A stretch of DNA of 33,327 bases from Pseudomonadota bacterium (GTDB taxonomy: Bacteria; Verrucomicrobiota; Verrucomicrobiia; Limisphaerales; SXTU01): positions 1 to 33,327 of the forward strand of contig RFSE01000048.1 of assembly GCA_009924135.1 (NCBI GenBank), read 5' to 3'. The notes beneath the pieces are model-generated. The model had not been told where the DNA came from. It saw nothing but the letters and a program-made list of their open reading frames with translations, and did not search any database. Below, one piece after another: positions 25,758 through 28,645 of this stretch. Made by a program: the position numbers and the translations under genes. Every line of letters starts with the position of its first letter. The stretch's first letter is position 1.

Positions 25758-25961
25758 ATGTTGACCGCAGAACGCGCAAACAAAACGAACAAAGACCTCC
25801 CGGAGACCATCGCCATTCGCACCGATGAGCTTGCCCCGCTGCTCGAAAAGTGGCGCGAGCAAAACCCACAGGTGCCTTGGTCCCGACTCTTGGCTGCGGG
25901 ACTCCGCAAGGAACTCGCCCCGCTCGCCGGAAAACGCTACGCCCACCTCGTGGAGAACTGA
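25758..25961 (+). CDS. small regulator-like protein next to the control region
   Basis: The 67-residue product starts at ATG 25758 directly behind the GTTAAC inverted repeats, with no ribosome binding site, so it may be leaderless. ETIAIRTDELAPLLEKWREQNPQVPWSRLLAAGLRKEL has a strand followed by two helices, the order of ribbon-helix-helix DNA-binding proteins. It is probably a repressor of one of the flanking operons. It is two bases from the next gene. Confidence 0.55.
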   Translation: MLTAERANKTNKDLPETIAIRTDELAPLLEKWREQNPQVPWSRLLAAGLRKELAPLAGKRYAHLVEN

Positions 25962-25963
25962 CC

Positions 25964-26764
25964 ATGAAAACCAAACCAACACGCAAAAAGACCAAGGCCG
26001 CAGTCGCGTCTCAACCTGAAAAGGTTCTGATCCTCCGCACCTGCAACGCCGACATGACCAGCCACGGCGGATTCAAATGGCCGGAGTCTGGGCCGGTTGA
26101 AGCGCCGGATTGGAAACCAACGCAGGAGTGCGGTAATGGACTGCATGGATGGTTGTGGGGCTGCGGTGATTGGTCGCTGAAAATCGGTGACTCAACTCGC
26201 AAGTGGATCGTTTTGGAAACGTCGGCAAAAGGCATTATCAATCTTGATGGAAAGGTGAAGTTCCAAAGCGCAAACGTGCTTTTTGTCACTGGAAAATGGA
26301 ATGAGGCGATGGCTTTTCTGCGCGGTCGATCAGGGTTGCAATACGAGTCTATTGCCACTGGCAACTACGGCCACGCATCTGCCACTGGCGACTCCGGCCA
26401 CGCATCTGCCACTGGCAACTACGGCCACGCATCTGCCACTGGCGACTACGGCCACGCATCTGCCACTGGCTACTCCGGCCACGCGTCTGCCACTGGCGAC
26501 TACGGCCACGCATCTGCCACTGGCTACTCCGGCCACGCGTCTGCCACTGGCTACTCCGGCCACGCATCTGCCACTGGCGACTACGGATGGGCTATCTCTA
26601 ATCATGGAACCGCGAAGGCTGGTAAGGATGGGATTTTAACAATCCGTTACAAAAACGCTGCTGGAAAATATCGCGCGATGGTTGGCTACGTCGGGGAAAA
26701 CGGAATCAAGCCAAACGTGGTCTACAGCGTTGACGAAAACGGCAACTTTCAGGAGGCAATATGA
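25964..26764 (+). CDS. DUF7666-like protein with a GHASATGxx tandem repeat domain
   Basis: A 266-residue protein. An N-terminal domain (ILRTCNADMTSHGGFKWP, GNGLHGWLWGCGDW) recalls DUF7666-type phage proteins. Next come eight perfect-length 9-residue units GHASATGxx at about residues 136-207, then a beta-rich C-terminal domain (GILTIRYKNAAGKYRAMVGYV). The repeats probably fold as a beta-solenoid or stacked strands. Biochemical role unknown; its variable residues at unit positions 8 and 9 suggest a binding surface. The stop overlaps the next ATG. Confidence 0.6.
   Translation: MKTKPTRKKTKAAVASQPEKVLILRTCNADMTSHGGFKWPESGPVEAPDWKPTQECGNGLHGWLWGCGDWSLKIGDSTRKWIVLETSAKGIINLDGKVKFQSANVLFVTGKWNEAMAFLRGRSGLQYESIATGNYGHASATGDSGHASATGNYGHASATGDYGHASATGYSGHASATGDYGHASATGYSGHASATGYSGHASATGDYGWAISNHGTAKAGKDGILTIRYKNAAGKYRAMVGYVGENGIKPNVVYSVDENGNFQEAI
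26369..26584 (+). repeat. eight 27-bp in-frame tandem repeats
   Basis: Eight units of exactly 27 bp, GHASATG plus two variable residues. The first seven codons are nearly identical. Codon 8 is AAC, GAC or TAC and codon 9 is TAC or TCC, so almost all variation is confined to two sites. The array can gain or lose units without a frameshift. A degenerate half-unit precedes it. Confidence 0.85.
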
Positions 26765-26970
26765 AACTCACCGACGCGCAAATCGAGAAGATTCTGCACA
26801 CCGCCGACAGCCGCGCCAGAGCCATCGCGCGCCGCCGCACGGGCGGCGAGTTTGACACCAGCGTTCAGCAGTACATTGATGCGTATCCGAATCGCAAAGT
26901 TGCTTACATGGCCTTCACCCGCGCGATCATTTCCGAATTCAAAAAACTCCAAGCGAAAGGAACGAAGTGA
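26761..26970 (+). CDS. 69-residue helical hypothetical protein
   Basis: The gene starts at an ATGA overlap with the repeat protein and ends at a GTGA overlap with the next. It is a charged helical protein (AQIEKILHTADSRARAIARRR, AFTRAIISEFKKLQAKG). No motif recognised. It may bind nucleic acid through its basic face. Early accessory gene. Confidence 0.5.
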   Translation: MKLTDAQIEKILHTADSRARAIARRRTGGEFDTSVQQYIDAYPNRKVAYMAFTRAIISEFKKLQAKGTK

Positions 26971-27302
26971 GCACTCAAGAAATAATCGCACTACTCGGCG
27001 GGGCTGTATTCGTCGGCGTTGTCATCTGGGCTAACCAGAGAGCAGATGACAAAGGCGCGGGCGTGAAGCTCGGTCAACTCTCGCCGGAGGAAGATTCATT
27101 TCACCACGAGCCGCACGCCGAAGACCTGCGCCTCCTCCGCATTTGCACGCGATGCAGCCGCTACCAGGGGCCGCGCCGGGAGATTCATTTCGGCCAGCAT
27201 CTGAACGTGATTCACGACATTTGCCCCGCGTGCGCGAAGCGGCGTGACGCGGAGGCTGCCGCCGCCACGGATACGAAGGTTCGCAAGCTCGCCATCGCAT
27301 GA
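26967..27302 (+). CDS. membrane-anchored zinc-ribbon protein, GTG start
   Basis: The 111-residue protein has an N-terminal transmembrane helix (IIALLGGAVFVGVVIWA, residues 6-22), an acidic linker with a HHEPHAED stretch, then cysteine pairs CTRC (60-63) and CPAC (86-89). A small zinc ribbon on the cytoplasmic side is likely. The start GTG overlaps the previous TGA. Function unknown; such membrane-tethered zinc proteins occur in phage early regions. Confidence 0.55.
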   Translation: MSTQEIIALLGGAVFVGVVIWANQRADDKGAGVKLGQLSPEEDSFHHEPHAEDLRLLRICTRCSRYQGPRREIHFGQHLNVIHDICPACAKRRDAEAAAATDTKVRKLAIA

Positions 27303-28480
27303 AATCCACCCTGCCACAAACCGGAGATGAGGGCCGTTTAGCGCGGTATCTAGCCAGCCAAGGCGGCAAGTGGGTTACGCGCACGCGAATCGCGATTGCG
27401 CTCGGATGCGAACCCACCTTGACCTGTTCTCCGGCATCGGGGGATTTAGCCTTGCCGCCCATTGGGCTGGATTCCGCACCGTCGCATTCTCTGAAGTCTG
27501 CCCCGATGCGAGCCGCGTGCTTGCCCACCACTGGCCCAGAGTGCCGAATCTTGGAAGCGTCTCCAAGCTCTGCCGGCGAGCCTACGATTGCGAGCAACGC
27601 GACGACGACGTTGTTTGGTGCCTCCGATGCGACGCTAATTTCGGCGACTGCGAATGCGTCGAAACGGATGAATTCACCGAACGTTTCGGAGAAATTGACC
27701 TTCTTACGGGCGGCGTGCCTTGCCAGCCTGCAAGCCTGCTCGGTGCCCGGCGTGGAACTGCTGACGCCCGCTGGCTGTGGCCTGATACCCTCCGAATCGT
27801 CGGCGAGCTTCGACCCTGCTACTGCGTCTTTGAGAACCCGCCAGCTCTCCTTACTCTCGAAAACGGGCGAGCCTTCAACGGAATTATATCAGGACTGGCC
27901 GCGCTCGGGTATGTGGGATGGTACGACGTTCTTCCCGCTGCCGCCATTGGTGCAGGACATCGCCGCGAGCGTGTCATCATCATTGCTGCCGACGCCGCGC
28001 GCTGGAAAAGTGACGATGGAGGAAGAGGAGTCCTGGGCCAAGCGGAACGCGGACGGGAAGGTTTCAACTCGACCGCTGGGGCTTGCGGTGAAGCTGCGAT
28101 TATTACCGACGCCGCGCGCGTCAGCTTCGGAAACCAGATCGACCAAACGGACCCCTTTCCAAGAAGCGGGCAAACACGGGAAGTATCTGCAAGTGGAAGT
28201 GATTCGGTTGCACCTTCTCCCGACTGCCACTGCGCGCGATTGGAAGGACTCACCCAACATGGCCCTGGAGCGGAAGGATGGAACCTCCCGCATCGACCAG
28301 CTTCCGCGCCGCTTGTTCGCGGACTTGAACGCAACGACTGGATACAAACTGAATCCCCAGTGGACCCTTTGGTTCATGGGCTACCCAATAAACTGGTTGA
28401 AGCCGCTTTACGATGCGTTGGCAACTCCGTCGTGCCGCAAGTCATCCTCCCCGTCCTCGACGCAATCCGAAGGCAACTAG
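27299..28480 (+). CDS. second reading frame around the methyltransferase (probable overlapping gene)
   Basis: A 393-codon open frame starting at an ATGA overlap with the previous gene and ending two bases from the next ATG at 28481. N-terminal residues 12-37 (GRLARYLASQGGKWVTRTRIAIALGC) look like a small winged helix. From residue 177 to the end it has signatures of a known phage protein style: SLRTRQLSLL, WPRSGM (200-205), FFPLPP, two LLPTPRA, LLPTATARDWKD and LNPQWTLWFMGYPINWL. Such blocks are found in proteins encoded beside phage methylases. The stretch overlapping the methyltransferase N-terminus is less protein-like. Confidence 0.6.
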   Translation: MKSTLPQTGDEGRLARYLASQGGKWVTRTRIAIALGCEPTLTCSPASGDLALPPIGLDSAPSHSLKSAPMRAACLPTTGPECRILEASPSSAGEPTIASNATTTLFGASDATLISATANASKRMNSPNVSEKLTFLRAACLASLQACSVPGVELLTPAGCGLIPSESSASFDPATASLRTRQLSLLSKTGEPSTELYQDWPRSGMWDGTTFFPLPPLVQDIAASVSSSLLPTPRAGKVTMEEEESWAKRNADGKVSTRPLGLAVKLRLLPTPRASASETRSTKRTPFQEAGKHGKYLQVEVIRLHLLPTATARDWKDSPNMALERKDGTSRIDQLPRRLFADLNATTGYKLNPQWTLWFMGYPINWLKPLYDALATPSCRKSSSPSSTQSEGN

Positions 28481-28506
28481 ATGAAGCCCGCTCCCCACTG
28501 CGCTGA
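27406..28506 (+). CDS. cytosine-C5 DNA methyltransferase
   Basis: From ATG 27406 the protein has 366 residues. Motif I is DLFSGIGGFSLA (6-17), motif IV GGVPCQPAS with catalytic Cys106, motif VI is FENPP (142-146), motif VIII is GAGHRRERV (182-190) and motif X is GNSVVPQV (339-346). A cysteine-rich insert (CEQRDDDVVWCLRC, DCEC, residues 62-84) is typical for phage Dcm-like enzymes. It methylates cytosine at a target set by the region 195-320, which evades host restriction. It is nested within the frame at 27299 and overlaps the next gene by 26 bases. Confidence 0.88.
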   Translation: MRTHLDLFSGIGGFSLAAHWAGFRTVAFSEVCPDASRVLAHHWPRVPNLGSVSKLCRRAYDCEQRDDDVVWCLRCDANFGDCECVETDEFTERFGEIDLLTGGVPCQPASLLGARRGTADARWLWPDTLRIVGELRPCYCVFENPPALLTLENGRAFNGIISGLAALGYVGWYDVLPAAAIGAGHRRERVIIIAADAARWKSDDGGRGVLGQAERGREGFNSTAGACGEAAIITDAARVSFGNQIDQTDPFPRSGQTREVSASGSDSVAPSPDCHCARLEGLTQHGPGAEGWNLPHRPASAPLVRGLERNDWIQTESPVDPLVHGLPNKLVEAALRCVGNSVVPQVILPVLDAIRRQLDEARSPLR

Positions 28507-28645
28507 AAAGGCGTTCCTCGATAAATGCGCCGGATGCCGGTCGATTGAGATCGTGAAACTTCGCTACAAGCAGCGGATGCACGCGAAGTTTGTGCCGCGC
28601 GGCGGACGGTGGGCGGGACAGCAAATCAAAACAATCAAGCCATGA
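28481..28645 (+). CDS. 54-residue Cys-containing basic protein
   Basis: ATG 28481 follows directly on the stop of the 27299 frame. The peptide is MKPAPHCAEK, then KCAGCRS and a basic tail (VKLRYKQRMHAKF, RGGRWAG). Cys7, Cys16 and Cys19 could form a small metal site. Its TGA overlaps the ATG of the next gene (ATGA). Function unknown. Its start fits frame 27299, supporting that frame as a gene. Confidence 0.55.
   Translation: MKPAPHCAEKAFLDKCAGCRSIEIVKLRYKQRMHAKFVPRGGRWAGQQIKTIKP

Follow-up and report, generated by a model that had tools for sequence, protein, structure and literature searches.

The window analysed here is a stretch of 33,327 nucleotides that makes up an entire contig (C413; RFSE01000048.1) of a 6.7 Mb draft genome. 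Towards its end, an open reading frame (ORF) for a C5 cytosine methyltransferase (P0002) shares 1,075 bases (27406-28480) with a second ORF (P0001), which is called the outer frame in the following. The two frames stand in a +1 relation, position 2 of the methylase codons being position 1 of the outer codons. The locus probably codes, with overlapping genes, for a C5 cytosine methyltransferase of two polypeptides in the manner of M.EcoHK31I, with the outer frame as its specificity half. The methylase frame would yield a catalytic polypeptide with motifs I-VIII and X, and the +1 frame a second polypeptide with the target-recognition region and a motif-IX block. Both polypeptides would assemble into one enzyme, which probably guards the phage DNA against host restriction. 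Translation, assembly, the need for both chains and the role of the enzyme are predicted from the sequence.

The two nested ORFs (27299-28480 with 393 codons and 27406-28506 with 366 codons) had been described in an initial annotation of the window and were confirmed, as was their common stretch of about 1.1 kb in different phase. The outer-frame peptides named there (WPRSGM, LLPTPRA and LLPTATARDWK among them) are present in the translation, and the bases that give GNSVVPQ in one frame are read as ATPSCRK in the other. The ATGA junction with the upstream ORF (26967-27302) and the ATG at 28481 directly after the outer TAG were also found as described. The openness of the +1 frame was compared with recoded sequences, whose synonymous codons were shuffled such that the encoded methylase and the codon pool stayed unchanged. 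In 2,000 recodings, the +1 frame carried 5.6 stops on average and its longest open run had a mean length of 138 codons. An open run as observed was reached by none of the 2,000 recodings with the ATG start (357 codons) and by one with the GTG start (369 codons). The third forward frame over the methylase contained 17 stops. A leave-one-out profile, for which 75 outer proteins other than that of the window were used, scored 188.5 bits on the window versus 34.6 ± 8.2 bits (maximum 55.1) on 200 recodings.

Further loci were fetched with an outer-frame pattern (outer-fetched set, best 80 of 306 confirmed), with a methylase-frame pattern (methylase-fetched set mtA2, best 80 of 567) and in a further set chosen by the outer frame (best 80 of at least 600), each pattern being capped at 600 loci, and were scanned with profiles for both frames. 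The methylase-fetched set is the only one not chosen by the outer frame; its loci were chosen by likeness to the methylases of this class, and nine of 78 repeat a place from another set. The recoding test was carried out region by region on the window and 78 methylase-fetched loci with 20 recodings per locus. Outer residues 165-225 of the window reached 54.5 bits (recoded mean 16.0, maximum 29.5), residues 226-348 reached 52.2 bits (0.4, maximum 8.2) and residues 349-393 reached 43.1 bits (-3.6, maximum 1.9). The corresponding regions scored above all recodings in 60, 77 and 73 of the 78 methylase-fetched loci, respectively. These scores support an outer product from about residue 165 (27791) onward, and dual coding from there on is very likely. 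A pure shadow reading of residues 165-393 was ruled out by synonymous recoding.

The overlap occurred in the same phase in all 80 outer-fetched and in 78 of 80 methylase-fetched loci. The two exceptions were L192, which is cut by a contig end and gave a weak phase-1 match only (E = 3e-6), and L158, which is apparently frameshifted and mixed. Over all sets, a phase-1 overlap was present in 275 of 277 loci (269, and six more on re-inspection), the remaining ones being the mixed L158 and the cut L006. The 269 loci represent 249 distinct overlap sequences, window copies included. All five loci with minus-strand matches (L015, L016, L020, L023 and L024) had the phase-1 overlap; L024 also showed a mixed ORF, and in L020 an outer stop-to-stop ORF of 630 codons faces an early-ending methylase ORF. 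The claim of a conserved outer frame held up with regard to stop codons: the frame was open to near the profile end in 252 of the 257 overlapping loci that are not truncated at the end of a contig. The five loci without a full outer frame were L033, L037, L084, L161 and L226, of which L037 is fused into one frame. In L084 (1695-2120), the outer frame ends before the recognition region (profile 3-143) and the methylase frame continues through it. L138, L158, L161 and L226 have their C-terminal part in a changed frame, e.g. a methylase-type C-terminus in the outer frame, by assembly errors or real switches.

In the methylase-fetched set, the outer score exceeded that of all 20 own recodings in 78 of 78 loci (mean 94.7 vs 18.6 bits), and the mean outer open run was 255 vs 107 codons; at least one of the 20 recodings was open as long in eight of the 78. 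In the outer-fetched set, the score exceeded all recodings in 78 of 79 loci with the exception of L076. A block of the loose form [LFMW]M[GAS]x[PE] was present in the outer frame of 73 of 75 methylase-fetched loci with 3' ends inside the contig, and the strict motif in 66 of them. Annotated carriers include phages of Acinetobacter, Salmonella, Pseudomonas, Vibrio, Stenotrophomonas, Lacticaseibacillus, Paenibacillus, Mycobacterium, Gordonia, Streptomyces, Rhodobacter and cyanobacteria. As a control, canonical methylases of related genomes were taken as forward ORFs passing the motif filter from 17 loci tried, which gave seven rows and six distinct ORFs (L296 equals L300). The outer profile scored -0.2 to -36.9 on these, and their mean +1 open run was 100 vs 108 codons recoded.

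Selection was assessed at four-fold sites of conserved methylase residues, with flanking genes on the same contigs for comparison; from codon use, an identity of about 28-30% is expected. The identity was 45.1% vs 36.5% (56 pairs of flanking genes) for pairs with 45-55% protein identity, 54.5% vs 34.0% (40 flanking pairs) at 55-65% and 62.6% vs 49.1% at 65-80%. Within the IX block, methylase four-fold sites were 91-99.9% identical across loci, and 93% in the methylase-fetched set. Mismatches were further compared between codon positions, in pairs with 45-60% identity unless stated otherwise and with pair counts that are not independent; the regions were bounded by a regular expression for motif IX, which bounded 229 of 267 loci. 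In methylase-guided alignments, the mismatch at methylase positions 1, 2 and 3 was 0.282, 0.188 and 0.496 over motifs I-VIII and 0.255, 0.192 and 0.438 after the IX block, where motif X is situated. The methylase frame rules in both regions, and the methylase-fetched set taken alone looked much the same. Over the IX block, the values were 0.292, 0.103 and 0.095, and 0.363, 0.131 and 0.208 in the methylase-fetched set; position 1, the outer wobble, was the freest in either case. The outer wobble was also the freest over the recognition region in methylase-guided pairs with 60-90% identity (0.498, 0.338 and 0.423). The same was seen, despite the methylase-guided alignment, in the L062 group, whose 80 members were fetched with the L062 outer protein; this protein is related to one of Acinetobacter phage ABMM1.

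For the recognition region, region-wise recoding is stronger evidence than the codon positions. In agreement with the initial annotation, four-fold sites and codon positions show constraint in both frames and not in the methylase frame alone. Its proposal of a conserved dual-coding arrangement was borne out by the openness of the frame, by homologues and by selection in both frames; the translation of both is inferred from this selection and not observed. The dominant frame appears to switch along the DNA: the methylase frame prevails over the catalytic core and motif X, and the IX block and, to a less marked extent, the recognition region are governed by the outer frame. Both frames would be constrained just before and over motif VIII.

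The methylase frame matched PF00145 with E = 2.4e-36 and 126.2 bits (cut-off 22) and phrog_363 with E = 7.9e-56. The best PF00145 stretch covered profile positions 45-162; a second stretch was counted, not located. A genome search at the window locus also gave 45-162, and several methylases of related genomes were matched over approx. 1-322. A second C5 methylase of the source genome (L285, G000:C113:10338-11477) matches PF00145 over 1-322. The large-polypeptide pattern of motifs I-VIII and X was found in P0002 from its translation and from invariant columns in the alignments A2 and A5. The names motif I (DLFSGIGG) and motif X (GNSVVPQ) and the role of PCQ as motif IV are those which we take to apply. 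The X-like GNSVVPQ lies in the methylase frame, and a IX-like block is found only in the outer frame. This block, LNPxWVEWLMGxP, is presumably motif IX, which it resembles and whose position, after the recognition region and before motif X, it occupies. The outer frame matched phrog_1008, labelled 'DNA methyltransferase', with E = 6.6e-24 over residues 109-370, as did all 76 aligned outer proteins, and the record of Streptomyces phage Samy (gp50) cites this family. Among 286 genomes of the window's class, phrog_1008 was matched in ten (own included) at 13 places, none of them with an internal stop. An apparent mention of phrog_1008 in PMC9409062 turned out to be phrog_10089.

The identity of the outer product is indicated by mycobacteriophages that have the enzyme in split or in fused form. 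Phasih and DLane have one ORF with motifs I-VIII, LPTP repeats, a EWMMGWPAGWVT block and GNGV(V/C)PQQ in a single frame; in DLane gp65, these are motifs I-VIII, the LPTP repeats, LAAAFPEWMMGWPAGWVT and GNGVCPQQ. Phanphagia has motifs I-VIII in gp65, and its gp66 carries the remainder in the +1 frame. The DLane and Phanphagia genes share their reading frame over the first 543 bases, with 96.9% identity; over the last 273 bases, their identity is 96.0%, but in frame 0 vs +1. The middle differs except for one 110-base piece with 88% identity. A profile of the outer C-terminal half was run against 12 proteins with a search space of 40,000. It matched eight of them, among them the in-frame C-terminal halves of DLane gp65 (E = 1.6e-16) and Phasih gp65 (E = 4e-10), and left four methylase-frame proteins without an in-frame copy unmatched. 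The C-terminal half of the outer frame is thus the C-terminal half of a methylase, and the outer frame has homologues beyond mere methylase shadows, as had been anticipated. The suggestion of the initial annotation that it encodes a separate phage protein beside the methylase was not upheld; most likely, it is the methylase's own specificity half. The fused methylases of DLane and Phasih keep an open +1 frame that matches the outer profile over the end of the catalytic part (L280:941-1336 with E = 8.8e-14 and L037:1965-2540 with E = 1.5e-21, respectively) and that may be a relic or may yet be translated.

On a wider scale and with less confidence, phage C5 methylases may well comprise a large, mostly unrecognised class of obligate two-chain enzymes from genes that overlap, commonly over 0.6-1.2 kb, and in which the dominant frame changes along the DNA. 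Catalysis and recognition would evolve in different frames of shared bases, with moves between split (+1) and fused forms.

Several results weigh against the two-chain reading of the locus. At 80-97% protein identity, the four-fold sites showed no difference between methylase and flanking genes (73.5% vs 72.8%). Over the recognition region, the mismatch was 0.551, 0.452 and 0.584 at methylase positions 1, 2 and 3 with methylase-guided alignments and 0.413, 0.410 and 0.610 at outer positions 1, 2 and 3 with outer-guided ones; the freest position varied with the guiding frame, also in the methylase-fetched set. Because of this guide-dependent signal and the null at 80-97%, confidence in the reading of the locus and in that of the class is slightly lowered. 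An hhalign comparison of the outer C-terminal profile with canonical methylases gave a probability of 0.1% and no support for motif IX. The outer profile found nothing relevant among PDB sequences, with three chance matches. The C-terminal piece of Samy matched PF00145 positions 270-322 only below the cut-off (E = 0.042), and four other C-terminal pieces were unmatched. An AlphaFold2 model of the outer protein alone (76 rows) was poorly folded, with a predicted local distance difference test (pLDDT) value of 56.3 and a predicted template modelling score (pTM) of 0.28. Its residues 1-165 were low. Values of 70-88 were reached in most blocks of ten residues within 171-270 and in both within 351-370, and two blocks had 60 and 47. 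Foldseek gave no match for this model in the PDB at E ≤ 0.001 and one at E = 1.7. The poor lone fold fits a partner-dependent chain or a poor alignment alike and decides nothing.

Outer residues 1-164 of the window also behaved like a shadow: their score of 17.3 bits lies between the mean (9.3) and the maximum (21.4) of the recodings. The corresponding region exceeded all recodings in 11 of 78 methylase-fetched loci. Coding over the whole 393-codon ORF, as initially supposed, was not borne out for these first approx. 164 residues. In the L062 group, the same part scored 122.9 vs 83.8 bits recoded and was selected in 80 of 80 loci. With a profile for residues 1-164 that contained the outer-fetched members and four of mtA2, the N-terminal part was selected in 58 of 79 outer-fetched loci (partly in-sample) and in 17 of 78 methylase-fetched loci. 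Given these differences between the sets, the start of the outer gene seems to vary between lineages. In 58 of 259 loci, the first ATG of the outer frame follows that of the methylase by four bases.

The main rival explanation is programmed frameshifting, in which motifs I-VIII would be read, followed by a +1 shift for the recognition region and motif IX and a shift back for motif X, all in a single chain. Such shifting would leave a changing dominant frame along the gene too, DLane and Phasih, whose methylases are single-frame, have motifs I-VIII, the recognition region, IX and X in this order along one chain, and the outer start in the window is itself unproven. However, two opposite shifts would be required in the window with its motif X in the methylase frame. 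A late shift explains neither the outer-frame selection on residues 165-225, which overlap the catalytic part, nor that on the N-terminal outer part in the L062 group, and the second ORF was annotated with a start of its own in several phages. Frameshifting is considered unlikely. It is similarly improbable that the outer frame encodes an independent protein, e.g. for restriction evasion or regulation, that merely shares the methylase DNA. Such a protein would fit with the lack of matching families in Pfam (window protein and seven others), NCBIfam (seven outer proteins) and PADLOC (three), and with outer residues 165-225, which have no known counterpart. Its C-terminal half is, however, the in-frame C-terminal half of the DLane and Phasih methylases. 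Likewise, no outer copy was seen away from a methylase, and a methylase match was missing in just one of 277 loci, L006, which is truncated at a contig end. This is a weak point as the loci were mostly fetched via this locus type.

It is hardly credible that the methylase alone is translated and that the outer frame is a shadow of methylase conservation and codon bias. Recoded methylases do retain an average score of 18.6 bits with the outer profile, outer residues 1-164 score 33.0 vs 27.5 bits, and the canonical L287 also has a long +1 open run (235 vs 154 codons recoded), though its outer score is -36.9. Residues 165-393 are nevertheless far above the recoded controls, the synonymous methylase sites in the IX block are 91-99.9% identical, and in-frame homologues of the outer half exist.

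The two-chain arrangement resembles known systems to different degrees. Lee, Kam and Shaw are said to have found in 1995 that the large M.EcoHK31I gene contains the small one in a different frame. The window probably shares the layout of this two-polypeptide C5 enzyme (YGGCCR), with motifs I-VIII and X in the large chain and a IX-like block in the predicted second one. In PMC3404938, M.EcoHK31I is described with I-VIII and X on the large polypeptide and only motif IX on the small one, and M.AquI with a catalytic half of I-VIII and a second polypeptide of IX-X. The predicted recognition domain of M.EcoHK31I is assigned to the large subunit, whereas selection in this region of the window acts mainly on the outer frame; the two are likened by layout, not by sequence. 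Unlike M.EcoHK31I, the window pair sits on a phage or prophage contig. M.AquI likewise has its catalytic and C-terminal halves as separate polypeptides, but the same paper places motif X in the small subunit and the window has it in the methylase frame. The M.AquI layout with X in the second chain was found in the five actinophages Samy, Phanphagia, Phontbonne, Darrell and MadKillah. A hidden HNH endonuclease of the ShiLan type, inserted in a mycobacteriophage methylase, likewise adds a protein in a different frame to a methylase gene of a phage (PMC11855218). This insertion is mobile and encodes an endonuclease, whereas the outer frame would be the methylase's own half.

The coordinates of the locus are summarised in Table 1. 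For the methylase, an alternative GTG start at 27370 would give 378 codons and is preceded by AAGG six bases upstream. The upstream ORF had no match in PHROG or Pfam at E 0.001. The assignment of the window to a phage or prophage is based on matches to a terminase large subunit, portal, major head protein, tape measure, integrase and ParB-like protein (10 ORFs vs PHROGs, 10 vs Pfam). An ORF at 25850-26764 with a DUF7666 match carries a run of SATGxYGHA-type repeats, which keep a 118-codon second forward frame and reverse frames open and provide an example of a repeat-made shadow.

Table 1. Features of the overlapping methyltransferase locus in the window.
Feature	Position	Strand	Remarks
Upstream ORF	26967..27302	+	its TGA overlaps the outer ATG (ATGA)
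Outer ORF (P0001)	27299..28480	+	393 codons, ATG start, stop TAG
Outer residues 1-164	27299..27790	+	outer-frame selection not resolved in the window; outer start uncertain
C5 cytosine methyltransferase ORF (P0002)	27406..28506	+	366 codons from ATG; PF00145, phrog_363
Methylase motif I, DLFSGIGG	27421..27444	+	methylase-frame translation
Methylase motif IV, PCQ	27718..27726	+	methylase-frame translation; P105 and C106 invariant in methylase alignment A2
Outer residues 165-225 (RTRQLSL ... WPRSGM ... LP block)	27791..27973	+	dual-coded over the methylase stretch ending in motif VIII
Putative target-recognition region, outer frame, LPTP-type repeats	27974..28342	+	recoding test, codon positions
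Outer-frame motif-IX-like block LNPQWTLWFMGYPINW	28349..28396	+	methylase four-fold site conservation
Methylase motif X, GNSVVPQ	28420..28440	+	methylase-frame translation; methylase frame dominant after the IX block
Small downstream ORF	28481..28645	+	54 codons; ATG directly after the outer stop

In public annotations, the arrangement is recorded unevenly. Among 21 dual-frame phage records, 11 list the methylase frame only, seven both frames and three the outer frame only, the latter (L011:2585-3139, L026:2001-2729 and L034:1977-2675) as 'methyltransferase' or 'hypothetical protein'. The earlier statement that annotation of such loci is usually confined to the methylase is about half correct. 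Phasih and DLane add two single-frame records, and the annotated methylase ORF of L033 also weakly matches the outer profile. In the Paenibacillus phages Sitara and Shelly, the gene inside the methylase is annotated as 'g59 internal gene' and 'g55 internal gene', respectively, so the nesting has already been noticed by annotators. Samy gp50, Sitara gp60 and Shelly gp56 are phrog_1008 records and belong to the same family as the outer frame; the label of this family states neither half nor overlap, and no mechanism is given in the annotations seen. No description of the overlap in phages was found in the literature, a weak negative as mostly open-licence papers were covered and subscription papers and preprints lay largely outside.

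It is unusual for long same-strand overlaps to be conserved across great distances, and annotation often leaves out one gene of the pair. If the two-chain reading holds true, the records of many phage methylases would show only half of the enzyme, or would list the other half as a hypothetical protein. An annotated ORF that is cloned alone could then yield an inactive protein, and the specificity of these enzymes would have to be read from the other frame. With their split and fused forms, closely related mycobacteriophages would offer a ready natural experiment.

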